From Chloroflexota bacterium (GTDB lineage Bacteria > Chloroflexota > Anaerolineae > J036 > Brachytrichaceae): DNA of 64,000 nt. The DNA lies in assembly GCA_025354985.1 (NCBI GenBank), contig JANXLU010000010.1:1-64000 (forward strand). Reading direction: 5' to 3'. Shown here piece by piece: positions 34,316 to 62,987 of this stretch (position 1 is the first letter of the stretch; every line of letters begins with the position of its first letter). The position numbers and the translations under genes were made by a program. The notes under the pieces are model-generated. The model was not told the origin of the DNA. It worked only from the letters and a program-made list of their open reading frames with translations, and ran no database searches.

Positions 34316-36433
34316 TTAGCGCACCCGTACGACCGCGTCGGTCATTACCGAGCCATCGCCATTCAGCAGGCGTGCTTTAAACACCCAGGTTGCATTGCTC
34401 TTCTTGGTCTGGTGCACTTTGAACATCAGTGCGTTCGCCCCGGCTTTTAGCTTCACCCGCGGCAGGTCAACGTCAACTGTATCATCCGGCACAGCACGCT
34501 CCACCCGCTTGTCCCATACCCCCTGACCATTGAGAAACACCTTCAAGCTCTCATCCGAGTTGATCCCGATCAGTGCCTCGCGCTCGGTGGGCACACTCAC
34601 CCATATGAAGGCATGTGCCACCATGTTGCTGATCAGAATATTTTCCTGGTTGGGTGAGAGCGCCGCTCGCAAATCTATAAGCCGGCTGCGGCTGCGGATT
34701 GGAAACATTGACTTGTCATCTATGCTCGTTGTAAACGTGTCTTCATTACCCAGGACGTTGTCATCAACAAACTTGTCCGGGTAACTTTTGGTCAACAGCC
34801 AGGTGCGCACATAGCCGTCGGCGCTTTGCGGATATATATTGACCCTGCTCACTCCTACGTTTCCATTCGCGTCGAGCGCGGCAAACGTGACCTGAACATA
34901 GCCACCGTCCAGATTGCTGTTGCCGTTGCTTGCCAGTTCCGGCATGGTCAGGATGGTCTCGGTGCCGGTTATCCCGTCAACCAAAACTGCGCCCACCGAC
35001 GGGTCATTTTGGTCGCGCATGGTGACCCACCAATATTGGGCAATTGAGTCCGGTGCGCCGCCCGCCAGCTTGATTGACTCACCAGTCTGATACACGTCGC
35101 CATCTCCCGGAGACAGAATACGCACGAATGGATGCGGGCTGGTGGCGGTGGCGAGCGCCGGGAGCGGGTTGTCCTTGAATGAAATTCGGCGCAGCCCACC
35201 CGAATAAATCGTCAGGTAATACAGCGCGCCATCCGGCCCGAATTGCAGATCCACCACCTCACCCGCGCCATCAACAAACGGCTCGACTGCTGCAAAGTGC
35301 CCATCTTCCTTTAGGGTCGCGCGCCAAATGCGCTGCGTGCTGTAGTCGGAAAAGAAATAATTTCCAAAGTAGCCATCCGGCCAATTGTGACCAAAATCAA
35401 ATGCGCCGCCGGTGACGCTGGCGTTGTTGCCTTTGTGCGGGTAATCAAATTCGCTCGGAACCACATTAAACAGCGTGACCGAGCTGCACGCGGTTCCAGT
35501 GACATATTCCAGGCGGGTGAGGATGCCCTCTACACACGGCCAGCCAAAATTTGCGCCCGCGGTTGCGCGCTGCACGCTTTCATAGGTGCTCCAACCGACG
35601 TTGCCGACATAGGGAATCCCGGTGATCGGATGAATGCCAAATCTAAAAGCATTCCGGTGGCCATAGCTCCACACGCGCGAGCGCGCGCTGTGCGGCTGGC
35701 TGGCCTCGAAAAACGGGTTGTCCGGCAGGCCGTCACCGGTCGCGGGGTCGAGACGCAACACCTTGCCGTTTAGTTTGTCCAGGTCTTGGGATCGATAGGC
35801 CAAATCGCTGCGTTCAAATGTGTATGCCCCGTCACCCAGTGATACAAACAGTGCGCCATCGACCGGGCTGAACCGCAGCGAGCCCACCGCATGAAATTGG
35901 GTGGTGGCCTCAAAATCATCCAGAAGCACCCTGGCCGAGGACCGGTCGGCGTTATCACCGTCCACGGTGTATCGCGTGAGCCGGCCTTTGCGCGGCGCCA
36001 CGTCATTATGTAGTTGCCCAGGAGCGTCGTATACATATAGCGCATATACAAAATGATTTTGATCAAAGTGCGGATCAACTGCAAAACCCACCAAACCCCG
36101 GTCGATATAGCTGTTGATCTCGTCGCGCAAATCGATCAGGGGACGGCCATACAGCACGCCGTCTTTCCAGATGCGCACATATCCTTCCTTCTCCGCGATA
36201 AATATGCGCCCATCCGGGGCAAATGCGAATGCGGTTGGAAACGTCAGCCCGGAAACCAATTCATCGCGGACGAACCCGGTCGGAAGCACAAACGGAGGGA
36301 TATCCAGCGCGCGGGCAATGTGCACGGGCTGAATTGTCAATAGCAAGCACAGCAGCAGGGTTCGCCGGGCGCCTGCAAGCAGCCATCGCACCCGCCTTCG
36401 CAAATTCCCGTGGGATGCGTCGTAAAGAATCAA
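34316..36433 (-). CDS. Secreted sorbosone/glucose dehydrogenase-like protein
   Basis: A 705-residue exported protein. A signal peptide follows a basic N-terminus (RRRVRWLLAGARRTLLLCLLL) and ends near IARA. Residues about 45-440 are a PQQ-dependent soluble glucose/sorbosone dehydrogenase-like six-blade propeller: FPTAFAFAPDGRIFIAEKEGYVRIW, RGLVGFAVDPHF, LNGKVLRLDPATGDGLPDNPF, VWSYGHRNAFRFGIHP and FGPDGALYYLTIYSGGLRRI. The C-terminal 230 residues include a jelly-roll-like domain (GINSDESLKVFLNGQGVW, LKAGANALMFKVHQ), perhaps carbohydrate-binding. The TTG start is supported by a perfect TATAAT 8 nt upstream. Substrate and true cofactor use are unverified. Confidence 0.87.
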   Translation of the reverse strand: MILYDASHGNLRRRVRWLLAGARRTLLLCLLLTIQPVHIARALDIPPFVLPTGFVRDELVSGLTFPTAFAFAPDGRIFIAEKEGYVRIWKDGVLYGRPLIDLRDEINSYIDRGLVGFAVDPHFDQNHFVYALYVYDAPGQLHNDVAPRKGRLTRYTVDGDNADRSSARVLLDDFEATTQFHAVGSLRFSPVDGALFVSLGDGAYTFERSDLAYRSQDLDKLNGKVLRLDPATGDGLPDNPFFEASQPHSARSRVWSYGHRNAFRFGIHPITGIPYVGNVGWSTYESVQRATAGANFGWPCVEGILTRLEYVTGTACSSVTLFNVVPSEFDYPHKGNNASVTGGAFDFGHNWPDGYFGNYFFSDYSTQRIWRATLKEDGHFAAVEPFVDGAGEVVDLQFGPDGALYYLTIYSGGLRRISFKDNPLPALATATSPHPFVRILSPGDGDVYQTGESIKLAGGAPDSIAQYWWVTMRDQNDPSVGAVLVDGITGTETILTMPELASNGNSNLDGGYVQVTFAALDANGNVGVSRVNIYPQSADGYVRTWLLTKSYPDKFVDDNVLGNEDTFTTSIDDKSMFPIRSRSRLIDLRAALSPNQENILISNMVAHAFIWVSVPTEREALIGINSDESLKVFLNGQGVWDKRVERAVPDDTVDVDLPRVKLKAGANALMFKVHQTKKSNATWVFKARLLNGDGSVMTDAVVRVR

Positions 36434-36441
36434 GCCTAAAA

Positions 36442-36447
36442 ATTATA
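36442..36447 (-). promoter_or_regulatory. -10 box TATAAT, leaderless-type
   Basis: A consensus minus-strand TATAAT lies 8 nt before the TTG start at 36433. It also shows that the gene has its own promoter despite the upstream gene ending only 41 bp away. Confidence 0.55.
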
Positions 36448-36474
36448 CGATTGGCGTCCGGCTTGCTTGCGAGC

Positions 36475-38766
36475 TCACGGACGACGCCAAATAACGACCG
36501 TATCATCCACCCAGCGCGTGCCGTCGGGTTTGAGCGCCGGGAGTCGTTCCTTGCTAACGGGATCGTAGAAGCCAATCTCTATTCGTGCGACCTCGGTAGT
36601 TAGATTAATGGCGCGTGTCTCCTGTATAACATCTCCGTTATCCCACCAGCGCGGCGTGAAGCGATCACCCAGCGGGGAATCATCTTCCTGGCTAATGGGC
36701 AGCCCGGCAGCATCCAGCAAATGTACAAACAGCACGGCATCCCTGCCAGTGCCGGCCGCGGCAGGTGGTTGCAATCCAGTCAGGCTTAGGATCAAATCGG
36801 TATTTACGGGCTTTGCACTGGCAGATTTCGCCGAGCTTGAACGTGGAACCAGGGTAAACCCGATCAACCGGGCAATTGAGCCAAAGCGCGCGTCCAGTGC
36901 CGTGGCAACGTTCGGTTGAACCGACGCCGCGCCATCGATTTTGATCGTACCGATAACCAATCGCTGTGCGCCGTTGGGGAGTGGCAACAGAGACGCCGCC
37001 TGATCGGGGCGTTGAATGGCAAGCCGGATCACAGCTGTGCCGCGCGCCGCGGTGGCGTCGATCGGCAACTCATACTGATCCTCAAACATGACGCTCGGAG
37101 CCCACTGGGTGGTGGCATATCGCCCGCGAAATGGGATGAAGCGTTTTCGTCCAACCACCTCGCCAGCCTGGTCGATGGCTTCAAGAAACACCCGATAGCT
37201 GGTGGGGATTGGCTGATCCAAGGCACCCCATAACAGTCGGATGTTGACACTCGCCCCAGGTTTGACTACACGCTGCATAAGATCGGCCGACCATAAGTGC
37301 AACTCGTCATTTATTTTCAGGTTTATCCCACTTGGTGCCAGCGCATTCAGCTGGGTTTGGTTAAGCGTTGGTGGTGTTGCGAACGCGGGGACTAGCACCG
37401 TAAATGGGGTGACCGCCGAAAGCACAAACAGAGCGCCGGATACAACCAATACCGACCCCGCATGGGTTCGGTCGGGCAGCACCGCCAACCAGCCTTGCGC
37501 GACCAACAAGGCAATGCAGGCTGAACCGGGCATAAGCAACCGGCTGTTCTCCGTGCCGACGTGAGTGCGCATCCAAGATAAAAACAGTGCAAGCAGTGCA
37601 GCTTGCCAGGCCAGCAATATGAGCCAATCCCTGCGCAGCCAGCGTCCGCGCCCGGCGACCTCACGCCACATGCGCGTAACCAGCCCGATAACCGCCACTG
37701 CCAAGCCGGCAAAAAAGAGCGCATCAACCCAGCCCGGGAAAACCTTCTCGATACCAAGGACGCCCCAAAAGGTGATAAACAACTGGGGTATCCGCTGCAA
37801 AATATCCGGCGCAGTCAGGGGCGCTGCGCGTTCAAGCGCGGCGTTCATTTGTTGCACCTGGGACCATGCGAGCGGATCGCCATACCGCACACTATTGCCC
37901 ACCAACCACCAACCCGCCGTGAGTAGGAATCCGCCGGCAAGCGCCGGGAGCGCGAGCGCCCAGCGCGCCGATCTAAACCGCACAACCAGCATCAGGACAG
38001 CAGGCGCCAGAAGTCCCAGCGCCTGAATCTTACACAGCATGGCCAGGCCAATGCACCCGCCAAGCACAAAAAACTGCCACCATACCCGCCGTGGAGAGTC
38101 GGTTGCTGCCGTGACAGTAATGCGGATCATCCAGGCACAGGCAAGCGTGGCCCCAAACGTCACGGCGATATCGTTGGTGACAACGCTGCTGAGGTGAATA
38201 AACTTTGGGTTAAACGCCACCAGGGCCGCGGCCAGGATGGGCATGAGCGCGCCAGTCTTCGCGGTGACACGTGCCATAAGCGTGCCGATCCAGAATACAC
38301 ACAGAACCACCCCAATCCCAAGCACAGTTGACAGCGCTCGCGCAGCATGAACCGCCCATGCCACGCCCGAATACGGCCAGTGTTCAAGCCCGGTGTGAAG
38401 ATGCTGATTGGCCACGCTGGCGTGATCCGCGTTCACATCAAGATCAAACCAATCCCGGTTTAGCAAACTGATCAGCCGAAGATCACTTGGAGAATATCGA
38501 AAAGGCGCAATCACCAATGCGACTGATGCGTAATACAGCGGCGGCTGAAAGGCTTCATGTGAGGGCGTTTCGATGCGCAAATCCGGCGGGCGACGTTCGC
38601 GCACTAGAAAATCGGCGTAACCAAAGTGGGCCGCTTCATCGCTGGCCTCAAAAAGGGGCAGCACGGCGTTGTTGATCAGGCACAGCGCAGCAAAGGCCCC
38701 GCAGATTAGCCATAGCCAGATGGAGGGGCGGGATGTGTGCAGCGGACTGCGCGTTAGCGGGGACAA
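36475..38766 (-). CDS. Polytopic membrane protein, DUF2142/GT-C-like
   Basis: A 763-residue membrane protein with about 12 hydrophobic helices in residues 15-440 and a soluble, beta-rich C-terminal part of about 320 residues. The early extracytoplasmic segment LFEASDEAAHFGYADFLV carries the DE-AHF motif of DUF2142 proteins and resembles the acidic loop of GT-C glycosyltransferases. AALVAFNPKFIHLSSVVTNDIAVTF is also typical. It would use a polyprenyl-phosphate sugar to modify envelope glycans or proteins; the substrate is unknown. The layout (GT-C helices plus C-terminal soluble domain) parallels the protein at 18057. The TTG start is supported by GGAG 4 nt and GATAAT 9 nt upstream. Confidence 0.75.
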   Translation of the reverse strand: MSPLTRSPLHTSRPSIWLWLICGAFAALCLINNAVLPLFEASDEAAHFGYADFLVRERRPPDLRIETPSHEAFQPPLYYASVALVIAPFRYSPSDLRLISLLNRDWFDLDVNADHASVANQHLHTGLEHWPYSGVAWAVHAARALSTVLGIGVVLCVFWIGTLMARVTAKTGALMPILAAALVAFNPKFIHLSSVVTNDIAVTFGATLACAWMIRITVTAATDSPRRVWWQFFVLGGCIGLAMLCKIQALGLLAPAVLMLVVRFRSARWALALPALAGGFLLTAGWWLVGNSVRYGDPLAWSQVQQMNAALERAAPLTAPDILQRIPQLFITFWGVLGIEKVFPGWVDALFFAGLAVAVIGLVTRMWREVAGRGRWLRRDWLILLAWQAALLALFLSWMRTHVGTENSRLLMPGSACIALLVAQGWLAVLPDRTHAGSVLVVSGALFVLSAVTPFTVLVPAFATPPTLNQTQLNALAPSGINLKINDELHLWSADLMQRVVKPGASVNIRLLWGALDQPIPTSYRVFLEAIDQAGEVVGRKRFIPFRGRYATTQWAPSVMFEDQYELPIDATAARGTAVIRLAIQRPDQAASLLPLPNGAQRLVIGTIKIDGAASVQPNVATALDARFGSIARLIGFTLVPRSSSAKSASAKPVNTDLILSLTGLQPPAAAGTGRDAVLFVHLLDAAGLPISQEDDSPLGDRFTPRWWDNGDVIQETRAINLTTEVARIEIGFYDPVSKERLPALKPDGTRWVDDTVVIWRRP

Positions 38767-46109: not shown

Positions 46110-49100
46110 CTATTGCGTGACCAACGGCAGGAAAACCGAGTTGACCGCGCCAAGCCGGTGCGTCACGGAATTGGAGGTATAGCGTACCCCGTCGATATCC
46201 ACATCTGCCTCGTTGACCAGGACCTGGCTGTTGCTGCGGGCAGTGGTTCCCTGCACCTGCACGCTGTATACCAGTACCATACTTTCGTCCGCGGGCACCG
46301 GCTCCGTCCACACCACTGCCGTTCCCGAGACCACGCCGCCATCCGTCACGGTGTCGCCGAGTAACTGCGCCGCTGGTGGAATGTTGCCTGAAACCGTGGC
46401 GGTCAATTCACCTGTCGCCATGCGAGCCAGCCCAGTTGCATGTCCAGGCCCTTGAATCAGCACATAGTAGGTAATGACCGTGCCTGGCATCACCTGTGAA
46501 CCGCTGGGCGGGTTCGAGAACATCGCAACATTATCGGGACCGCTCACGATTGCCGGCGCGGGTTGTTGCGTGGCTGCGCACCCAGTGTTATCAAAGCGCC
46601 ATGTGCTGGTTTCACCATCGATTCCGGCGTGCACCTTCACCTGAATCGGCAGCGTTGGGTCGAAGTTGCGAACCACATAGGTAAACAGCTCATTCTCACT
46701 AAAGTTCAAGGCGAAATTGACCGGGCTGTACTTGATGCTCTTGAATCCCGGGTTCGCGGTGGTATCCGTCCAGGTCACCAAATACGCACCCTTCTTACCA
46801 AGGAAATTTGAGCCATGGGTCGAACTGACGCGTGTTGAGGTACCCGTGCCAAACGATACATAACTAACGTCATATCGGCAGTGGTTGGTCACACGCCAAT
46901 TCATGGTCGTCTCGCCTGCCGCGTTGGTTGTGTAACCCAAGAACTCCACCTTGTAGCACGCACCATCCTTCATACAGGGGGCAACGGGCGTAGAAGTTGG
47001 CGTCGCCGACGGTGCAGATGTGGGCGTCGGTGTGGGTGTTGTGACGGGCGTTGAGGTTGGGGTACCTGTCGCGCCACCACAGTTTCCGTCCATTCTGATT
47101 TCAAAGTAATCAATATCGACGTAGCCAACCTGACTTGCAGATTCACGGCGCAGACTTAGGGTGTTGTTCCCACTGTTCAGCGAGATCGAAATCGGCCCAC
47201 GTGTGGCAAAACCATCCCAGTCGTCGGTGTCGACAAAACCGATGGCATTCGAAACCAGGCCGTTGTTGGCATACAGGCTCCGGACAGCGGTTGTCTGATG
47301 TGCACGGTCACTGTCATCGCTGCTGTAGCGAATGTAAAGGCCATACGTTCCTGCCGCAGGTGCATTGATGGTGACCGTCAGACCCTGCCCGACATTGTCC
47401 AGATCACCCACTGCGGTCAGACCGGAAGCAGCATCATTGTCATATGGATGGGCAAGGTTTGTGAAGCTGCCAAACTCGGCTTCAGCTCGTCGCACCTGCG
47501 TCTTGTATGTTCCGCTTGAACTGGTCAGGCTTGCCACTTCGAAGCCGATGTACTCGGTGCCATCAGCGGTGCCGGGCAACTGCGAACAGTCGGTCTTGAA
47601 CACAGCACGGACCGATTCCTGGGAATAATTTGCGCTTTGCACGGTCACGATAACCCGGGCGGTGTTGGCAGGCACGTTAAAGGTGAAGAGCGAGCCTACA
47701 CCAAGCACCGGGTTGGGCAGGGAACCCACGCCACGGCCATCCGAATCATTGTCATAGAGCACCGCGCCGGACGGGTTCTTGGTGCCTTTTTGGTCGGATG
47801 CGCCGGCCACGCGTACACGTAGGCGTTCAGTGGGTGCGTTGGCCTGCCCGGATGTGCTGCGGTAAATCGTCTGCAGGGTTAGTTGCGTTACGCTTCCCGA
47901 GCAGCTTGCCGAGCAGGTGCCACCCGATGGGGTGGCGCTGGCTGTGGGCGTAGCGGTCAGCGTCGGCGTATTCGTAACCGTTGGCGTGGCCGTGTTGGTT
48001 GGGCTTGGTGTCCAAGTCTGCGAAGCGGTTGGCGTTGCAGAGCTGATCGCTGTCTGCGTGGCAGTTGAGGTCGCTGTGGCCGTGAGCGTCGGTGTGGTTG
48101 TTTTGGTGGCCGTGCTGGTCGGCGTAGTGGACGGTGTTGGGGTTGCGCTGTTATTCGGAACGGGCGTCCGCGTCGGCGAAGCGGTTGACGTTGCCACGCT
48201 GGTTGCGGTCTGAGTGGCTGTATTCGTTGGCGTCGGCGTCACTGTCCTGGTCGGCGTAACCGTAGCCGTGTTAATGGCCGTCTTGCTCGGCGTAGCGGAC
48301 GGCGTCACGGTTGCGCTACTGACAGCGGTGGACGTCTGGGTCGGCGTGGCAGTATTGGTGGCCGTATTGGTTGTGGTCTGGGTGGACGTTTTTGTCAAGG
48401 TCGGCGTCGGTGTGGCCGTATACGTAGCCGTGCTGGTTGGTGTTCGGGTAGGCGTATTTGAGGACGTCGGCGTCGGTGTGGCGGTATTCGTAGCCGTGCT
48501 GGTTGGTGTCCAGGTAGGTGTATTTGAGGACGTCGGCGTCGGCGTGGCGGTATTCGTAGCCGTACTGGTTGGTGTTCGGGTAGGCGTATTTGTGGATGTC
48601 TGCGTCGGCGTGGCGGTGCTCGTCGCCGTCGCTGTAGCCGTACTGGTTGGCGTCGAAGTCGGCGTGTTGGTCGGCGTGGCCGTGGGCGTTGCGGTGTTGG
48701 CAACCACGGTAAGCTGTGCTCCATCCTGGCTCAGCAAGTTCACACTTAATCCGCGCGCGTTGGCGACGATGCCGTTGCTCAGATTGATCAAGCTGCTCCC
48801 GCCGGCGACCCCTCGGAATTGCACCCAGGCCAGTACGCCATCCCCACTGAACCCGGCGGCAGTGCCCAGCGATGCCCGGCCAAAACGCACACTGTTGCCG
48901 TTCATCGCACTGGTCAGCGGCACTGCCGTCCGTCCGGTGCTGCCCAACAACCCGGCGTCGGACAGCTGGGTCACAGTCACGATCGCCGGGTCAAAGGTTA
49001 TGAGTGCTTCATAGCTACCCAGGTTCTGCACGCCACTGATGACCAGCGCCATGGAAATGTTTCCACCCTGATCTATCGTCGCGGTTGCAGGCTGCAGACT

Positions 49101-52100
49101 GAGGCGCGCATTGCCCGGCTGGGGTGTTGGCGTTGCCGTGGGTGGTTGAATTACAGTTACATGTGTCGTGGCCGTGGCCGTGGTGAACAAGGTCGGGCTG
49201 TAGTACGCGGTCCACATGCTGCTTCCAGAACTGGTCTGGGTTTCAACACGGCTGGTGATAAATTCGTATGTGTCTCCAGGTTGTAGTACAACGGGCGTCT
49301 GCGTTAGCAGTGTTCCCAGTTCGCTGTCCACGAGTGACTGCGTGACCAACGGATACAAACCCGTATTTTGAACGGTGTAGATGTAGAACACCTCCGTGCC
49401 ACGGTTCACCGTAATGCTGTCCAAACCACTGGCCTGAGGTTGCAGGCTGACCGTCTTGCTCAAAGCGATCGAAATCGGCAGCTCGGCTCCGGTATCACAG
49501 CCGCGTCCGCCGGGCGCAGTGAATTGCACGTGATCGAGAAACACTGCGCTGTCGTAGGCCGTGTCCACCGCGTCCGATATCACAAATGTAGCGTAACTGT
49601 GGTTGCCCGGTGTGACCGGGGTCTGCGCGCGCAACCGCAATGTGGCCGCGTCATAGGTGGTACCGGCCGCGTTTGCGGGTGTCACACCCAGCACGGTATT
49701 GACGGTGATGCGGTTGCCGGCGCTGTCTCGCGCGATGGGCGCGCCATCCACCGTGATCTCAAACGCATCGTTAAACTGTGAGCCGACAAACTCCGGGAAT
49801 TCTTCACTCAAGAACGTGAAGTCCACTGACATGCACGTGGCCGTGGCGGGCACGGTAAACCCTATGTTCAGCTGTCCATAGTCACCCAGGCCAAACGTGT
49901 TGGGCGCGTTATTGGGCTGATCGGCGAATATCATGTTGCCAGTGCCCAGGTAGGCGAAGGTTTTGCCGTCGGTTGGGAAGCCAGCCATGGACGCACGGGT
50001 GAGCCCACCCAAACCCGCTTTATTGATCCCGTCAACATCAAGCGTCGCACTGGTTACCACACCGGGCGCAAAGCCCATGGCCTCGGCCAGGTCAAATGCT
50101 GAAGGTGACACGTCGCCAAAGTTGTAATTGACCGCCGCGACGCCGCTCGGCACGGTCACGTTGCTGATGACGTTGCCGTTTGCAATCGTGCCGCCCTGGC
50201 TGCCCGCCTGCGCCGTTCCGGTCAAATAGCCAAATGGCTGCACTTCCTGGACGACATACGTTCCTGGTAACACATCAAAGATATAGAAGCCGCTGTTATT
50301 GGTCGCGGTGCTCTTGCTCACGGCGCGGTTTGCGAAGTCCCGACCGGTCAGGTTGATCGTCACCGGACTTAGACCGGTCTCCGTTAGGCCGCGCACCCCA
50401 TCGGCATTTGCATCCAGATAAACATATCCGCCAAGGCCGGCGCTGCGCTCGCCAAAGCTGTAGTCGGTGGCGTTTGCCCCCACGCGCAGGCCTATGCCCA
50501 CAATGCGGTCGTTCAGAGCGATCCCCCCGGCGCTGCCTGCCCGATCCAGCCCATCGAGGAAGTTGGGTTGTTGCTCGTTCAGTTCGTAGACACCTGCGCG
50601 CAAGTTTCCAAACCCAAACGCACCATTTGCGTCGGTCACCTGCGTTATCAGCACGCTGCCACCAACATTCAAATTGCCGGTCAGGGTTATTAGCACGCCC
50701 GCGATTCCGGGCTCGCTTTCTCGGACGACATCGTTATTAACGTCAACAAAGACGTATCCACGGATACTGCTGAGTGGCGTTTCGCTAAACAAGTAGCCGT
50801 CGCCAAAGTTGGTGGCGCCCAAAACGATATTGTTGATTCGGTCATTCCCCGCGCCCTGGACGGCGTTTCCACCCAGCGTTCCCACGGTCTCGCTGCTGTC
50901 ATCAAAGCCGGCAGGTTGCACTTCACTTAGCGCATACGTGCCAGCCGGCAGATCGCTAAAGAAGAAGTTGCCGGACGAATCGGTGGTGGTGCTATACGAA
51001 ATAGTTCCGCTGACGAAGCTCGTGCCCGTGAGCCAAATCGTCACATTTGGGATTCCATAATCGTCGCAACAGAATTGATGGTTGTTGTCCACATCCGCGT
51101 ACACCGAGCCGATAATGCCGGTGCGCCGCTCGTTGAACAAGTATCCCGACCCGTTGTCGCCATACGTCAGTGGGATGTTGATAAAACGATCGTTCTGGGG
51201 CTCGCCGCCCTTGTTCCCAAGAATATCCACCCAGTCGGTATAACCAGCCGGTTGTTGCTCGGTCACAGAGTAATAGCCAGGTCTCAGCACGTCAAAGCTC
51301 CAGCCACCATAGGCATCCGTAAGCCGGGTGATCAGCACCGATGCGCCCAGATCATCAATCCCATCCAGCACAATCTGGACATTGCCGATTCCGCCCGCGT
51401 AGTCATCCGCCACACCATTTTCATTCTTGTCGTAATTAACCAAGCCGTGCAGGCTGGCCAGGGTGCGCTCGCCAAAGCGATAATTAGTAGCGACGCTGTC
51501 ACGGTTATACACAATTGCGATGCCGCTGATCACGTCGCTCAGCACATGTCCGTCAACGGGTGACGAATAGGTCGCGGTCACACCACCTGCCGAACCGGCG
51601 AAGTCGGCGCCGTCAATGATCGCCGGCTGGGTTTCGGTGATTGCATACGTGCCGGTAAACAGCGGCGCAAAAGCGAAGCGGCCACATGGCTCATAGTCAC
51701 TACAGCCGGCGGTGGTGGTGGTCGCCGTGACCACGCCGCCACCCGTGCGCACCCCGCCAAGGTCGATCATTACACCACTCAGACCTGTGCCGTCAAATAC
51801 GCCATCACTGTTGTTGTCAATGGCCACTGTTCCTCGAAGCATCGAACCAACCCTGAAGTTACAGCCCGCACCGGAACCATAACCAAGCACGATCGCACTA
51901 TGGGCGCGCCGCGATGCGTCATAGAGCCCACCACCACACGCCACAACGCCATCCCGGTCCGCCAACGGCAACTCATTGCTATATCCGGACGGGAATGAGA
52001 CTTCAGTGACTTTATACGTGCCGGGCGGCAGGTCAAAGAAGAAATACTGCCCGTTGACATCTGTTGTGGTCGTCTGAACCAGGCCGCCCTGCATGGTCGT

Positions 52101-55100
52101 GCCATCCAACCGGATGATCTCACCGGCAACCGGTTGAGTGCGATAGGCAAACGGCCAATCCGGGAATGGCCAGTAGGTTACACTGCCATTGATGGTGCCC
52201 GATATAAGCTCGCCAAAGTTGAACCCTTCCGCAATTGCACCGGCCGTCAATGTGATGACAAATTGATCATTCCCACTGATGCGCGCCGTTGATCCTGTGC
52301 CGGAACCCAACTGTTCAGCGCTGTCATCATAGCCGGCTGGCTGCACCTCTGTCACGGTATATACGCCGGGCCGCAGACCGCTGAACTCATAGAACCCTTG
52401 GGCCAGGACTGAACGGGTGACAGTTTGGCTCAAATCGGTGACACCGGTCAAGAGGATCGTTGCTTGAACATTGGCGGCATCCGTACCGGCATCATATGTG
52501 CCGTTCCCATTCACATCCAAATAGGCGTTTCCGTTGATAAAGTTACGCAGCTCGCCAAAGGTATAGCCGGACAAAACCTGACCGGGTGTAAACACAATGC
52601 GGCTGAACACGTCATTAGTTGTGGTCAGTCCGCCACCCGTGCCGATGTGCTCCTTGCCATCAAAGTATTTGGCAGGTTGCGTTTCACGTATGTCGTAGGT
52701 GCCGGTCACCAACCCGCCGAAGTACCAAAAGCCCTCGTAGCAGGTTTGGTTTGCGACCACACTCTGGCTGGTCGTGTTGATGGCCACCTGCTGGTTGTAG
52801 ATGTTCACCCCGGTGAGCTGAATACCCGCGCCGCCGATGCCAAGCTCGGGCAACACGCAGGTTGATCCACCGGGTTCGCGCAGTCCGTTGTCATTGTCAT
52901 CCCGATAGACATATCCGGTGATGCTGGGCTGTTCGCCAAATACGCCCCCCTTTAGGTCGCCCACACCAAGCACCAGACCCTGCAGGCGATCATTGACGGT
53001 GCTGGATACCAGCATGCGCACGCCCAACAAGACACTGTCTTTGCCATCCACATCCGCGTCCCGTTGAATCTGGGTTACGTTGTATACACCCGGTCGCAGA
53101 TTCGGGAACTCCCAATATCCGTTGCTATTTGTGCTCACCGTAACCAACAGGCCCTGCCCCAAGTCGTTCACCCCATCCAGCACGACCTGAGCCGCGGCGC
53201 CAATCGGGACCTCAGGGCTGTCTTGATCACCCTGACACAAACCAGAGTCATCCGGGCAAGCAGACCATTCGAAGATACCGTCGTTGTTGATGTCAAAGAA
53301 AGTGTAACCCGCGATGCGCGAGGGGGTGATTTCGCCAAAGTTGTATCCTTCGGCGTACCCGGTGCCATTGAACGTGAAGTCAACGGCATCCTGTCCCAAA
53401 GGTGCAACACTGCCACCCTGACTACCAGCGTTGTCCAGACCATCCAGCCAACCGGCGGGTTGAATCTCGCTGATCCGATAGTTACCCGCGGGCAAGTCAC
53501 CAAACACATACAGACCCGCGGCATTGGTTGTGGCGGTGCGCACCAATTGTTGGCCACTCGTCGTGGTTCCGGTGAGCAACACGTTCACATTGGCAATACC
53601 CGGCTCAATATTGCTCTTGACACCATTGTTGCTCAGATCGTCATATACGTAGCCGCTCACGCCGGTGATGCGCTCGCCAAAGGTATAGCCGCTTGCTGCA
53701 AACCCCGGCGAAATGACGATGGAAGTCACCAGGTCATTGGTCAGGGAGCCCCCTGCGTTTCCAGTGTGATCGATCCCGTCTACAAATCCGGCGGGTTGCG
53801 TCTCGCTCAAGACGTAGGTGCCGGGCCGCAAACCAGTGAATGTCGCGAAGCCGGCGTCATTGGACAGACGCAGCAGGCTTACCGATGCACCAAGATCGTC
53901 AATACCAGCGAGGGTGAACACCACGGCCGGAATGGGTGCCTCGTTCCCCTGGGGCACACCATCGCCGTTCACATCCAAATACACCTGCGCCTGCACGCTT
54001 GCCAGAGCAAGCTCGCCAAAGTTATAGTTGCGCCCGCTGTCAACGGTGGTGATCGTCACATCAAATGCATCCGGCGATACGATACCTCCCAACGTGCCCA
54101 GTTGCTCCTTTCCATCCAGCCAACCAAACGGCTGGACCTCGCGAATGCGATACGTGCCAGCAGCCAGGTTGGGGAAGTTATAGAAGCCAGCGCTGTTTGT
54201 CTGCATGGTGCGGTTGACCGCCTGGCCACCGGTGGTGGTGCCCGTGAGCACGATGACCGCGCCGCTAATACCGGTCTCGTTTGATCCCGGAGCGGCGTCA
54301 CGCACGCCATCATTATTCTTGTCAGAGTAGACATAGCCGGCCAGACCGGACTGGCGCTCGCCAAACAAATTACCACTGCCTTGCTGCGCCACTCCCAGCA
54401 CGATGCTGTTGATCCCGGTTCCCGTTGCGACACCACCCGCAGTTCCGACAGCGATGACACCATTGGTGTAGCCAGCGGGTTGGGTTTCGTTCAATGCATA
54501 CGTGCCCGGTCGTAGATTTCCAAACGTAAAAGTTCCATCCGCAGCAGTTACCGTGCTCATGCTGACCGCGGCGCCGCGATCATCCGTGCCAGTCAACGTC
54601 AGGATCACACTTGCAATGCCTGGATCCCCGGTCGCCGAGCCATCATTGTTGATGTCAAAGTAAACCATTCCGGCAACACTGGCGGGGCCAATTTCACCAA
54701 AGTTGTAGTTATTTGCACCCACGCCGGTGGCGATGAGTCCGCGGAACTCATCATTGAAGGCTGCGCCACCCGCCCCGCTACCCAAAGAATCTTTGCCATC
54801 CAGGACGTCCGGCGGCTGTTGTTCCGTTACGGTATATGTTCCGAGTGGCACTCCAAGGAATTGGTACTGGCCGTTTCCGTTCGTAATGGTGATGAACTGT
54901 ATCGCCTGACCAGTCTCTGATTCCACTCCCGTCAGGGTGATCATCACGCCATAAAGACCCGCTTCGGTTGGCTGGCGGATTCCGTCGTTGTTTACATCCA
55001 GATAAACGTAACCTGCGATAAATGAGGTGCTCTCGCCAAACTTAAATGCGCCCACCTGGGAGCCCAGGCCCACCAGAATATGATCAAACCCGTCGTTTCG

Positions 55101-58100
55101 GACGCTTAGTTGATCTGCGCCGTCACGATCCTTGCCATCGGAATAACCTGCCGGCTGTGTCTCTGTGATGGCGTAGGTGCCGACCCGCAACGCATCAAAT
55201 GACCAACTGCCGTCCATTCCACTGGTGATGTTGCGTGACACGCGTACGCCGCGGTCATTTATGCCGCTCAACGTAATCGTGACGCCGCCGATCCCCAATT
55301 CGCCCGCATCCAACCGGCCGTTGTTGTTCAGATCAACAAACACATTGCCAAACACGCGACTGGCCGGAATTTCACCAAACGTATAGCCGCTTGCAAACGT
55401 GCCCTGGGTGATCACAATATTGGTGATGAGATCCTGATCAGCGCCTTCGGTCCCCGACACCAGGCCACCCGGAATGATTCCGCCTGCCGAGCCGATTGAT
55501 TCGCCACCATCCAGGAATTGCACAGGTTGCAGCTCGTGCAACGCATACGTGCCTGTTACGAGATCGCCGAAGGTAAACAATCCGTTGGCACCCGTGGTCG
55601 TCGAAACAACCACCTGATCACCAACGGACGTTGTGCCGCTCAGGACCACGACGACGCCAGCCAACCCGCCTTCATTCAGGTCACGTTGACCATTGCCGTT
55701 GCCATCGTAATATACGTTACCAATAACACCCACCTGGCGCTCGCCAAAGTTATATCCTGTGGCGCCAAAGCCGCTTGAAATCACGATATTGCTGGCTACA
55801 TCATTGGCCAATTGCCCGCCTGCGTTGCCAAGCGAATCCCGACCATCCGTATATCCTTCGGGTTGCAACTCCGTAACCGTGTAGGTGCCCGGGGTCAGTG
55901 CCGCAAAGTTGTAAGAACCTCCGACACTAGAGCTGGTCACGAGAGTCACCGCCTGGCTCAGGTAGTTCATACCCGAAAGAGTGACGGTCACACCCGTAAT
56001 CCCAGGTTCGCCGGTGTCGATATTGCCGTTGTTATTCAGGTCATGGTAGATCGACCCGCCCACACTTCCCGTTTGAAGCTCCAAATACAGATAGCCGGAT
56101 GCGCTGGTTGTGGTGATCACAATGCCACCAAACTGCCCTCCCGCCACCGAGCTTGGGATGTTGCCGTCAATCTGTCTGGAATCCAAAAATGGCGGCGACG
56201 GCGGGTTCTTGGTAACTGTGTAGGTGCCTGCGGCCACCCCAACGATCTGCCACGACCCGTCCCCGGCAGTGGTCAGGCTGCGTTCGACCAGCGACCCGTC
56301 GCTTGCCAGCACGCCGAACACATTGATCATTCGTCCTGGAATACCGGAATCCAAACCATCCGCCACACCATTTACATTCTTGTCCTCGACAACGCGACCG
56401 CTTAAGCTGAGCGCAGACTCTCCAAACGTGAAGTTGCCCTTGAATTGGCCCTGGGCAAGAACGATATTGGTGAATATGTCGCTCGCAACACTCAGGTTTC
56501 CGGCTGCATCACGATCAAGACCATCCCCATATCCACCTGGTTGCATCTCGGTGAGCGTATATGTGCCGGCTCGCAACAGTTCAAATCTGGCATAGCCAAG
56601 CTGATCCGTTGTCGCCGGTATCATGACGTCCTGTCCCCGATCGTCCCGCCCGGCAAGCATAAGCATCGCAGCAGGGATGGCCGGGTCGTCATTGTTCTTG
56701 AAGCCATCATTGTTGAGATCGGCATACACAACCGCCTGTATCACCGATGGATTCAACTCGCCAAACAAATAATCCGTGGCAAACGTGGCCGCGGTGATAG
56801 GGATATTTGCAATCAGGTCATTGCCCGTCGCCGCTGCCTGCAAAACGAGCCCGCCATTGCTCCCAACTTGATCCGTGCCATCGACATACCCGACTGGCTG
56901 AACCTCGATGAGGGAATAGGTGCCGTTTGGAATATCACCAAAGCTGAAGATGCCACTGTAGCCGGTGGTCGTTGTGGTTATGAAGGTAGCTCCGACGTCC
57001 GTGGCGCTGAGCACCACGGTTGTGCCCTGGATGCCGGCTTCGTTCTGCTGCCGGATGCCATCACTGTTTCCGTCCAAATACACATAGCCCACGACGCCAA
57101 CCTGGCGTTCGCCAAAGTTTGCACCCTGGAAGTAGCCGCCGATCGTGCTAATGGTCAACGAGAAAGAATCATTGCCCGAGACTTGGAACTGCCCATAGAG
57201 ATCGCGCTCCTGACCGTCGGTGTAATCTGCAGGTTGTGTTTCCACCAGTTGATAGGTTCCGCGTCGCACCCCGTTAAACTGTATTTGTCCGTAAGCGTTT
57301 GAGACCGTGGTCATTGTCACGTGTTGACCCACGTCATTAAGCCCGGCCACCGTGGCCGTGACTCCGGCAATACCCGGTTCACCATAATCCTGATATCCGT
57401 TATTGTTGAAGTCGACGAAGACCTGGGCATTTACAACCGCACCCTGCAGCTTGCCAAAGTTGTAATTCACACCCACTGCACCTGCGGTGTAGCTGATCTG
57501 CGAGATCAAATCCTGACCAATAATCGTTCCACTGATTCCACCAAGACTTCCGACCTGCTCAAACCAATCAAGATATGAATCCGGGTTTAGCGACGTATTG
57601 GCATCGGTGCTAATTTGATATCGACCAGTCGGCAAATTGTCAAACACATAGTAGCCAAGTGACCCGGTGGTGTTGGTGCTGCTATAGATGCCGCCCCCAT
57701 CCGTGCTGCTCATGATCACGGTTACGGCGTCATAAACATAGCTGTCAAAGTAGTTTCGAATGCGATCTCCATTGGCGTCAAAGTAGATGAATCCACTCAA
57801 CCCGGTCTTGAGCTCAGCAAAGGAATAACCGTATGCCCCCGCCCCCTCGGTTACAGAAATGCCGGACACCTGATTCGTGGTGCTGATGCCACCCTGACCG
57901 CCTATGGTGATCATCCCGTCGACAAACCCGTCGGGCTGGACCTCTGTAATCGTGTAGATTCCCGGGCGCAACAGACTAAACTGCACATTGCCGTAGTAGT
58001 CGGCGTCCCGGGTTATCGGACCGACGGTGCCAAGATCATCCTGACCCGTGATCCCAACCAAGGTGCCCTGGATTCCAGGTTCGCCATTGTTTTGCCCATC

Positions 58101-61100
58101 CGAGTCGCGATCCTGGAACACGTTGATATATACCGTTGCAGGTGCAAGCTCGCCAAAATTGAAGTTCTGACCCTGATCACCGGCCGCGAACACAAACCCG
58201 CCAAATTGGTCGTTGGCCGTTGCGCTGAACACTGCACCTGTGCTCAACAGGCCTGGTTGTTCACTGCCATCCAGATAAGAATAGAGCGGATAAAGTGCAT
58301 GGGATTGCTCAGTGAGCGTGAAGGTGCCTGCAAAATTTACGCTAAACCGATACCGCCCGCTGGCGTTTGTTGTGGCGTTCATGACGCCAGACGCACCTGA
58401 CGGAGTGACATAGTCCAAACGTATGTTGACGCCGGCAATACCCGCTTCACCGGTCTGCCGCACGCCGTCATTGTTGTGATCGCGATATACGTAACCGGAG
58501 ATGCCACCCGCTGATTCGCCAAAGCTGTAGAACTCGGATCGACCCTGCGGTCCAACCACGATGTTGTCGAAACGATTGACACCGGCGGTGGCAAATGGGC
58601 TGCCATTGGACAAAAAGGCATCCGCGTATCCTGCTGGTTGCGTCTCAATGACGCTATACGTTCCGGGCCGGACGCTAAATGTGTATACGTCACGGTTGGA
58701 ATAAGTCGGATAAGGCAAGTTTAGTGCGAGCCCAGTCGTGGTGGTAAGAAGCGCATTCTGGCCAAAGCTGTCCAAGCCGGTCAGAGTCATGGTTACCCCG
58801 CGCAAGGTTGGGTCACAGTAGTAATAGCCCTGATAGTAGTAGTTGCACAGAGTGTTCTCAAACGTTCCGTTATCGTTGGCATCTACAAACACCATGCCAC
58901 GGATAGTGGACGCCGGGATTTCGCCAAATTCATAACCGCCGGCCATATGCCCGGGCGTGAACGTAATTCCAGAAATGGTCTTGGAACCCAGCCTGGCACT
59001 TGTGATGCCGCCCGAGCTACCTGCGGTTTCAATTCCATCGACCAGATTCAAATATCCATAAAGTTGATCGGTCTGCTGCGCGGTCACGGTGTAACTACCC
59101 GCGCTCACACCGGCAAATACAAAGAAGCCATTGCCATCCGTGCTGGTCGCTTGCATTACCGGCACCCCTTGCGAGTTTGACCCGGTCAATGTAATTGGGA
59201 CGCCGGCAATACCCGATTCACTGGTATCTGTACCATTCGCGTCATAGTCGAGATAAACACGTCCGCTGATTCCATCCGGTAGTTCGGCAAACGCAAAGCC
59301 ATAACCGTTGGCACCCGATGGCAGTGTAAATGAAAACGCATCGTTGGCGCTGGTCAAATACAGAACATTACCGCTCGCCGTATCAATACTGTCGATGTAG
59401 CCGACGGGTTGGATCTCCACCAGGCTGTATAACCCAGGCGTTATGTTGCTAAAAGAGAACCCGCCGTAATAATCTGTAACTGATTCGAGCTGGACTGGAT
59501 TGTTAAAAGCGTCCATGCCAGCCAGCGTGATCGTTACACCCGCGAGACCAGGCTCGCTATCATTTACGCCATTGCTGTTGATGTCAAGAAACACCTGACC
59601 ACTTACCGACCCCGGAAGTAACACGCCAAAGTTATAGTCGGCGCCCACATCGTTGATTCCCACAACCACGTTGGTGATCTCGTTGGGCAAAACGGCGCCC
59701 ACCACGACGGCGTTGACGGTTCCGGTCTGCACCTTGCCCTGAAACACCGGATAGTAGCCGGACGGAATATGCGTAACAGCATAAGTGCCAGGACGCAGGT
59801 CTGTGAACCGATATTGGCAGTTGCCTGACAGAAGTGAACTGCGGCTGACGGTCGCGCCATGGTCATCCGTGCCACCAAGCGTGACAGTATCACCCGTCAC
59901 TTGATACGCGCAACCCGCTTCGGTCTGGGGGTCGCGCACCCCATTGTTGTTTCGATCCTCATATACGTAGCCGCTGAGCATCGCCGCACCGAGCTCGCCA
60001 AAGTTGTAGTTGACGCCTTGCGCACCGCCGCTCAGCACGATGCCATCTATCCGGTTGGCCGAAGCGGTGCCACCCAAGCTGCCCGCGGTCGCAATCCCAT
60101 CGTCAAAACCCGATGGCTGTGTCTCTACAATGGCATACGTTCCGGGCTGCAGCCCACCCACCGCCCAATATCCATCGGCAAACGTATCCACTCCAAGGTC
60201 GACCGGGTCACCGATGGTTGTCGTGCCCGTTATGCGTAGATGCACCTGAAAAATACCTAACTCAGACGCAGTCCGAACACCGTCATTTCCAATATCCGCA
60301 TAAACATATCCGCTCAGGCTGCCCAAATTGCTGTTTGCCTCATACGCGCCGATGTCGCACGCGGAGCCCTGCGGTCGGCTGATCCCGCGCTGATCTGTGG
60401 GGAGACACGCCGCCGGGTCCCCGGTGTCGATCGCCGGGCTTCCTGGAAGCAGTGCCAGGCTCGCTGTGGCCCCACCGTTTTGTTGCAGCCCGCCAAGCCT
60501 AGGGCTGACGTTTGTCAAGTTCCCCACGGTAATTCCGGCCAACACACAACCAGGCAGACTCCCGACAAGGTTATACCCCAACGATTGCAGGTTGCCGGAG
60601 CCATTTTCGGTTGAACAATCCGGCGCATTTCCAGATCGATCTGCATTCTGAGCCACCAGGCTGTTATGGAGGGTCAGTGTGCCATAGGCATATGGCACGT
60701 GGATTCCGCCACCGCGACCATTGCCATCACCATTGGCGTCGGCCTGGTTGCCGACGATGGTCAGACTATCCATGTCAAGACCGTAGACGCCGTCAAGCTC
60801 CAGCGCACCTCCGCTGACATCCGCACTGTTATTTGCAAACGTGCTGTTCTCGATGCGCCCGGTAATGTAGTTGACTTGCAGTGCTCCACCCATACCGCCA
60901 CAGGTCGGGCAGCTCACGGGCGACAGCGCCCGGTTGCTATCCATAAGCGAACCAGTCATGCTGATCGAACCGCCATTTACGTACAACCCGCCACCATTTG
61001 CAGCAGCGTTACGGCTAATCGTGCTGTCGTGGATGCCCAGTGCAGCGCTGTTTGAATTGATTCCGCCACCCTGCGTAGAGGTGTTGCCCGAAGCCGTCGG

Positions 61101-61838
61101 GCCGTTGTAAAGGACGGCGGTGCGGTTTAGCTGCACTTGGGCGTTGTATTGCGCGTAGACGCCGCCACCATAATCAGCCTGGTTGTATGCAATAACACTG
61201 TCGTTGATCGTCAGGTGACCGTTGTAATCGACGTATACACCACCGCCCTGATAGTAGGCATCCACCTGGTTGTTGGTGATCCATACATCATTCAAGGTTA
61301 CGTTTTCGTTGCCACCAATCGTCAGTGCGCCACCGTTTTGATAACTCGGGTGCCCACCATCCAGGGTGATGTGCGAGAACACCACGGGGTCACCCGGCGC
61401 AAACGCGGGCTTGGCGACCCCGTTCCGACCATCTATCAAGTTTGAGAAGTTCCCACCGCCACCGTTACCAAATGTTGAAACACCCAGAAGCCGGTCCGTT
61501 CCGCCATTCCGAATGACCGTGCTATTCGCGCCGGAGCCGCTCCCCGACCCGTTTATGATGACCGTTTCCGCAATTGCCAAACCACCTTGTGTCAATGTGT
61601 AAACACCAGCCGGAAGCACGATGGTATCCTGACCTGGATGGGCGTTGGCCTCGCCCATGGCCGCACGCAGCGTGCATGTGCCATTGACCGTGGCACAGAA
61701 CCCATCCCCGGGATAGATATCCGGCAAGTCTGCCGGGTCGTCCACGGGAAAGCTAGCCGCCCAGACCGGGGTGGCGAGACCGAGCGTAGCGACAATTCCA
61801 GCGATCATAACTATTGAGCGGTAAAAAGCGTTTTGCAC
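46110..61838 (-). CDS. Giant surface protein: beta-helix head, 29 SdrD B-like repeats, anchor-L, cohesin, CBM-like module
   Basis: A single uninterrupted frame of 5242 residues. Order: signal peptide (residues 1-28); a CSLREA-type start ([12 protein letters not shown]) and a right-handed beta-helix like polymorphic outer-membrane proteins (about 30-498); 29 SdrD B-like domains of about 117 residues (about 500-3905); a choice-of-anchor-L domain (about 3910-4115); a conserved-repeat domain; a cohesin (about 4240-4375); a T/P linker of about 260 residues; a beta module; a CBM6/35-like domain (about 4770-4920); a second linker; a domain of unknown type; a DUF11-like domain; and the end SVFLPLVTQ. 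It should be a very long, calcium-stiffened stalk holding the cohesin and sugar-binding end away from the cell, or the reverse. The GTG start has GAGG 5-6 nt upstream; an ATG at 61808 is the alternative. Confidence 0.9.
48430..48627. repeat. 66-bp minisatellite, three copies, in the T/P linker of the giant gene
   Basis: Units begin at 48430, 48496 and 48562, differ by only a few bases, and stay in frame (22 residues each). A fourth partial copy starts at 48640. The rest of the linker (48705-47925) is built of looser repeats. This length is prone to slippage, so linker length may vary between strains. Confidence 0.8.
50110..60325 (-). repeat. Array of 29 SdrD B-like domain repeats within the giant gene
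   Basis: I counted 29 successive domains, each opening with a GYVYxDxNNDGxR-like calcium-loop motif and closing with a YNFGE-like strand. In between come a VTLTG-type strand and the PGTYxVTExQPxGY signature. The copies are clearly related as protein but strongly diverged as DNA, unlike the nearby minisatellite. Repeats 5, 21, 22, 24 and 27 carry inserted segments with extra Cys or aromatic residues. Confidence 0.85.
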
Positions 61839-61870
61839 AGGTGACCTCGGTTGAGGTTGTATCCGTCCTG

Positions 61871-61915
61871 TTGCTCACTATCCCGCTCACGGAATGTTCA
61901 GTTTGTGCTCAGTTT
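61871..61915. promoter_or_regulatory. Four-copy direct-repeat array, 11-12-bp period, upstream of the giant gene
   Basis: On the plus strand the units TTGCTCAC (61871), CCGCTCAC (61883), ATGTTCAG (61894) and GTGCTCAG (61905) follow each other at 12, 11 and 11 bp. The array lies 33-77 nt before the GTG start. Its repeated heptamer also occurs upstream of the other two genes of the cohesin/dockerin locus. Confidence 0.65.
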
Positions 61916-62049
61916 ACAAAAACGGTCACTTTTCGGCCAAACCCAATCGTTAGTATGGGTATGATGCGGTCATTTGGGACAGGTTTTTAAGACTAGACCA
62001 GTTGACTTTACCCATAAAAATGTGTTCAATGGTTTTGGAGACTCAAATT

Positions 62050-62376
62050 ATGAAAAAATTCCTACTGATTTACCATTCTCAACCAATGACGGCGATGCCA
62101 ACCCCGGATCAAATGAAGGCCATGATGGACGCATGGATAGTGTGGAACACCAAATGCGGCACCGGCATTGTCGATCTGGGCAACCCACTGGCGCCCCAAG
62201 CGCACCGCATCGCAACGCAGGGTGCAACGGACATCACCAGCACGGAATCTGGCTACTCCATGATCCAAGCCGATGACATGGCTGCCGCCGTCAAGATGCT
62301 GGACGGCCATCCCATCATGCACCAGCCCGGTGGTTCCATTGTGGTTCACGAAGTGACTCCTATGCCCGGGATGTAA
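62050..62376 (+). CDS. YCII-related protein
   Basis: A 108-residue protein resembling the YCII/DGPF-type dimeric alpha-beta barrel family. It starts with KKFLLIYHS, then PDQMKAMMDAWIVWNTKCGTGIVDLGNPL, a GYSMIQADDMAAAVKMLDGHP helix and a VVHEVTPMPGM end. Members are often sigma-factor-linked accessory proteins or of unknown role; no ECF sigma gene is visible here. TTGGAGA lies about 12 nt before the ATG. The 211 bp upstream separate it from the divergent giant gene and include the direct-repeat array of that gene. Confidence 0.8.
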   Translation: MKKFLLIYHSQPMTAMPTPDQMKAMMDAWIVWNTKCGTGIVDLGNPLAPQAHRIATQGATDITSTESGYSMIQADDMAAAVKMLDGHPIMHQPGGSIVVHEVTPMPGM

Positions 62377-62441
62377 TTCCACGGCGATTACGTCGGGGAC
62401 AATAGAGGCTGCGCGAACAAGATTTCGTGCAGCCTCTCATC

Positions 62442-62987
62442 ATGTCACCTGTCATGCCAGACGCTCTTATTTCAAACACCACTTCGCGCACCACGTTTCG
62501 CAGCAAACCTGTGACCATCATTGGCGCACCCCTACGCCCTGGTGATTTCATGCCAGACGCGACGTTGCTCACGCCGGAGTGGGCTCAGATCAGCCTGAGC
62601 AAATTTTCCGGTCAGGTGCGGCTGTTTAGCGTGATCCCATCGCTTGCCACCGGCATTTGTGACACGCAAACCCGCCGATTAAATGACGAAGCCCGGCGCC
62701 TTGGTGAACGTGTGCGGGTCATCACTATAAGCGCCGATCTGCCCTTTACCCAAAAACGCTGGCAAACGGACGCCGATGCGCATGCCATGACGATGTTGAG
62801 CGACACCATGTCGCTGGCGTTTGGAGATGCGATCGGCGCACATGTGGCCGAAATGCGGGTTCTGCAGCGGTGCATCCTGGTGGTCTCGGACTCCGATAAG
62901 GTCACATACACGGAATACGTGCCCGAGATCGCGCAGCACCCGGACTATGACGCCGCGCTTGCTGCCTTGACCGCGCTGATCGGGTAG
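62442..62987 (+). CDS. tpx: Thiol peroxidase (Tpx-like) without the resolving cysteine
   Basis: About 181 residues of the atypical 2-Cys peroxiredoxin Tpx family. SVIPSLATGICDTQT contains the peroxidatic Cys73, VRVITISADLPFTQKRW the conserved second block, and VTYTEYVPEIAQHPDYDAALAAL the C-terminal block. In typical Tpx proteins the resolving Cys follows RF or RW about 34 residues after the first; here that position is Gln108. Another Cys (VLQRCILVV) is found in a different strand. The enzyme may therefore work as a 1-Cys form with an external thiol. The ATG at 62442 is preferred, though a GTG at 62427 is possible. Confidence 0.87.
   Translation: MSPVMPDALISNTTSRTTFRSKPVTIIGAPLRPGDFMPDATLLTPEWAQISLSKFSGQVRLFSVIPSLATGICDTQTRRLNDEARRLGERVRVITISADLPFTQKRWQTDADAHAMTMLSDTMSLAFGDAIGAHVAEMRVLQRCILVVSDSDKVTYTEYVPEIAQHPDYDAALAALTALIG

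Follow-up and report, generated by a model that had tools for sequence, protein, structure and literature searches.

A four-unit GYTCA tandem between a giant surface-protein gene and a divergent thiol-peroxidase pair in a Chloroflexota genome as a candidate operator

The window analysed here is a stretch of 64,000 nucleotides from the genome of a Chloroflexota bacterium. Within it, a non-coding spacer of 211 bp (61839-62049) separates two divergent genes (Table 1). The gene on the minus strand encodes a giant protein (46110-61838) with a signal peptide-like start, many stacked SdrD_B-like domains, a choice-of-anchor Q domain, a Thr/Pro-rich linker and a CBM_35 module. No close homologue of the giant protein was found in its genus. 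The product of the divergent plus-strand gene has no match in Pfam or NCBIfam, and we take it to be YCII-like; a gene for a thiol peroxidase follows it.

Table 1 Features in and around the spacer, with positions in the window
Feature	Position	Strand	Details	Basis
Giant gene	46110..61838	-	5242 aa; GTG start at 61838, GAGG upstream	
Weak -10-like TACAAC	61857..61862	-	8 bp past unit 1, on the giant-gene side	predicted from sequence
Repeat unit 1, TTGCTCA	61871..61877	+	core GCTCA at 61873-61877	sequence
Repeat unit 2, CCGCTCA	61883..61889	+		sequence
Repeat unit 3, ATGTTCA	61894..61900	+		sequence
Repeat unit 4, GTGCTCA	61905..61911	+		sequence
-10-like TATGAT, without a good -35	61960..61965	+	on the YCII side	predicted from sequence
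Small YCII-like gene	62050..62373	+	ATG at 62050; homologues 30-40% identical, in a few relatives	
Thiol peroxidase gene (Redoxin/AhpC-TSA)	62427..62987	+	3' of the YCII-like gene	

Direct reading of the spacer bears out the array described in an earlier note on this DNA: four heptamers, each followed by C or G (C, C, G and G after units 1 to 4), with start-to-start distances of 12, 11 and 11 bp, or about one helical turn, inside a 211-bp spacer. The four heptamers share no more than a core of five bases, G[CT]TCA (GYTCA); the outer two positions vary. The sequences between the units are dissimilar, with 5 of 11 positions identical for units 2 versus 3. The array lies in the upstream spacer of the giant gene, and 32 bp separate its nearest unit from the start codon. 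GYTCA reads along the plus strand and thus away from the giant gene on the minus strand, an orientation that favours the plus-strand gene. When the spacer was scanned for sigma-70 promoters, no pair passed on either side.

To gauge how unusual the array is, we used dinucleotide shuffles as the null model and scored the best four-unit array for a given unit length k. With the spacing fixed at 10-12 or 11-12 bp and k of 5-10, 0-0.3% of shuffles of the 211-bp spacer reach the observed four-unit score; in 1,000 shuffles at spacings of 10-12 bp, the score was equalled in 0.2% at k = 7 and in none at k = 5, 6 or 8. When all spacings of 8-24 bp are permitted, 3% of 200 shuffles are as good. Across all 27 intergenic segments of the window, 0-7% of shuffles hold an equal array, depending on unit length (0-3% for k = 5-6). 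A sample of 312 intergenic segments, 97 kb in all, is expected to contain 0.2-1.3 such arrays and contains 1-4, depending on k; at k = 5 or 6 the array has the top score of these segments. The array is therefore locally unusual but borderline once window, unit length and spacing are allowed to vary, and it is not beyond what chance may yield in a genome of 4.19 Mb. Given the 3% of shuffles with free spacing and the 0-7% across the window, the assertion that four such copies are very unlikely by chance was too strong.

The strict pattern GYTCA-N6-GYTCA-N6-GYTCA has one exact match in the whole genome, which is the array itself. Near matches with two mismatches number 33 genome-wide, against 27 for the reversed control, which is no clear excess. 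By the measure of such a scan for tandem matches at 11 bp, which the earlier note had proposed, a regulon is not supported. Coding and non-coding DNA were compared in a sample of 854 kb, made up of the window and fetched stretches, with a simple gene call. GYTCA occurs there at 2.3 copies per kb and strand in non-coding versus 2.4 in coding DNA; a slight surplus of non-coding GYTCA pairs at 11 bp is mostly due to the array in the window, and the other non-coding pairs returned by a search of the sample for two- and three-unit regulons are chance-like. GYTCA tandems were likewise absent upstream of the OmpR-type and BTAD loci of the genome that have readable starts, and upstream of three other large surface-protein genes. 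Elsewhere in the genome, several GC-rich GCGAATGCTTCGCCC-like repeats occupy the spacer before a gene of 1124 aa (G000:C35 ~36425-36725; L243 8425-8725).

That the array arose by chance comes close to an even bet. Among thousands of intergenic regions, one would simply have come to contain four GCTCA or GTTCA pentamers at intervals of 11-12 bp and have been chosen post hoc. The free-spacing shuffles of the spacer agree with this, as do the conservation among units, limited to the 5-bp core, and the lack of a second site or a regulon in the genome; the expectation per 97 kb of non-coding DNA scales to ~1-6 arrays in the whole genome. Against chance stand the rank of the array among the sampled intergenic segments, the low share of window-wide shuffles that match it at core lengths of 5-6, and the recurrence in relatives of this word and spacing at non-coding sites that are conserved.

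Those sites lie at other genes. The spacer, the giant gene and the YCII-like gene have no counterpart in the three other genomes of the genus, as judged by orthologue queries with the YCII-like protein, the N terminus of the giant protein and DNA. The DNA of positions 61700-62560 found no match in 40 relatives, a scan of the genome collection returned distant choice-of-anchor proteins only, and no GYTCA tandem stands upstream of the YCII homologues in five relatives.

Of 396 genomes of the class, 33 contain exact GYTCA triplets with 11-bp spacing and 17 contain the reversed control pattern. Among the retrieved cases, with near-identical tandem copies left out, 13 of 16 triplets lie outside any ORF of at least 150 aa, versus 4 of 10 controls (one-sided Fisher ~0.04, computed by hand). 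Across the class, this preference for non-coding DNA is modest, and the other sites precede unrelated genes. In five genomes of a sister genus (g6), a GTTCAC-N5 triplet lies 14 bp in front of a gene for a histidine kinase; its cores are invariant, whereas its spacers vary. The triplet resembles the array in core, in its 11-bp spacing and in being non-coding, and it is conserved over all five genomes; it differs in the gene that it precedes, in lying 14 bp from the start codon and in having solely GTTCA cores. At the g6 loci L246, L247, L248, L250 and L254 (~1501-1527) the triplet is divergent from a substrate-binding lipoprotein-like gene. Other triplets in the class precede a glutathione peroxidase gene and a MarR-type gene, and in one class relative (G255) GTTCA units stand directly before a gene for a BTAD-NB-ARC protein, a SARP-type regulator. 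Upstream of the SARP genes of relatives with readable starts, GTTCA tandems are not a general feature, and G255 therefore does not stand for a rule. These occurrences make it plausible that the GYTCA tandem serves as an operator word in the class.

Two further kinds of 11-bp tandem were seen in relatives. The triplets of one genome (G005) were set aside, being dispersed 11-bp CGCTCACATTT tandems; at four of its loci (L245, L253, L255 and L261) a dispersed sequence contains such a tandem in variable form. In two genomes of one family (f27; L275 and L277), long 11-bp GTTCAGG arrays lie directly before dnaA. The latter are perhaps related to replication and probably differ in kind from the array in the window.

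We propose, with a probability of roughly 0.4, that the array is a single operator, with roughly four half-sites in head-to-tail order, for one of the ~20 OmpR-fold regulators (PhoB/SARP-type winged-helix proteins) that the genome encodes; ~20 Trans_reg_C domains were counted, along with 5 BTAD/SARP proteins. Its protomers would sit side by side on one face of the DNA, one per GYTCA half-site and about one turn apart. What we infer here takes in protein binding itself, the identity of the binder and the direction of control. In favour of an operator are an array that is confirmed, locally unusual and non-coding, the presence of OmpR-fold regulators in the genome, a core that is also the half-site of AfsR and of Streptomyces PhoP, the conserved triplet of the sister genus, the triplets across the class and the GTTCA units before the SARP gene of G255. 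The single exact site in the genome and the lack of a consensus promoter in the spacer argue against it. The units of PHO and afs boxes are directed at the gene under control; if this holds for the array, its target would be on the plus strand, and the orientation makes the side of the YCII-like and thiol-peroxidase genes more likely to be controlled than the giant gene. Any effect on the giant gene would then be repression or shared control.

One of the nearest described architectures is that of the SARP regulators, for which the rule is 11-bp repeats with the last repeat 8 bp from the -10 element; from the positions given in the same source, the upstream half-site of AfsR can be read as GTTCA (PMC10936776). 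The afs box of AfsR, a member of the SARP family from Streptomyces, thus resembles the array in its head-to-tail 11-bp repeats and apparently in its half-site core. It has two units, with their centre at -29.5 and a distance of 8 bp to the -10 element, whereas the array has four units, a first spacing of 12 bp and no such -10 element in the matching orientation. In SARP boxes, heptamers are directly repeated every 11 or 22 bp, and here two spacings are 11 bp and one is 12; a SARP protein is also at hand, as the genome has five BTAD matches. In the GTTCA direction the 3' repeat does not lie 8 bp from a -10 element: no -10-like hexamer occurs 8 bp past the array on the plus strand, and the minus strand has the weak TACAAC, relative to which the core is reversed. 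A comparison with OmpR-family and SARP architecture had been drawn in the earlier note, and it is a fair analogy as regards the 11-bp head-to-tail heptamers, the GYTCA core shared with AfsR and Streptomyces PhoP, and the tandem in G255; the part concerning phosphate fails.

A stricter version, in which the array is the site of an AfsR-like SARP activator of the giant gene, read on the minus strand with its last heptamer 8 bp from TACAAC (61862-61857), is very unlikely. Both the distance of 8 bp and the repeats at 11 bp agree with the SARP rule (PMC10936776), and the genome codes for five BTAD proteins. On that strand, however, the unit becomes TGAGCA and runs opposite to the GTTCA of the afs box; the -10 element is weak and would leave a leader of only ~12 nt; and the SARP genes with readable starts in the host and its relatives are without such upstream units. 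It is more improbable still that the array is what is left of a short 11-bp tandem duplication (VNTR) and has no regulatory role: one relative, G005, carries dispersed 11-bp tandems at several loci, but the unlike spacers of the array and its first spacing of 12 bp make a recent duplication unlikely.

Phosphate control was examined in the family of the host, in which TTWAM-N6-TTWAM occurs upstream of pstS in 11 of 18 genomes (mean 0.19 and maximum 3 in shuffles). TTWAM pairs upstream of these genes peak clearly at a spacing of 11 bp and less strongly at 22, with a handful at 33. The pst cluster of the host contains phoU, pstS and a PhoB-like regulator (C85:170585-171253), and the tandem in its own pstS promoter is TTAAACCAGGCTTAAC. 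TTWAM tandems were recorded at G000:C85, upstream of pstS (167511), and at loci L220, L226, L227, L228 and L231. These promoters give the PHO unit of the family as TTWAM, repeated every 11 bp, and the analogy with the Streptomyces unit GTTCACC does not carry over. In type, the family PHO box resembles that of Bacillus more than that of Streptomyces.

PHO boxes bound by PhoB or PhoP consist of at least two 11-bp direct repeat units with seven conserved positions. The array has such repeats (at 12, 11 and 11 bp), but its unit differs from the one in the pst promoter of the host. That the host PhoB binds the array and places the giant gene under phosphate control, an idea raised from the likeness of the units to GTTCACC and compatible with the PhoB-like regulator in the pst cluster, is scarcely credible when GYTCA pairs occur in none of the 18 family pstS promoters and most of these, that of the host included, use TTWAM.

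The operator reading can be widened to the class. The 11-bp GYTCA tandem would then be the operator word of an undescribed OmpR-fold or SARP-type regulator, used at few promoters per genome throughout the class and here controlling both the giant SdrD-like surface protein and the divergent peroxide-defence pair; we regard this wider proposal as unlikely. A firmer by-product of the analysis is the family PHO box as TTWAM repeats, which would make phosphate regulons predictable, with the site of the array excluded from them. If the operator itself is real, it would offer a rare handle on the control of a 5242-residue surface protein, or of the adjoining peroxidase genes, in an uncultured bacterium.
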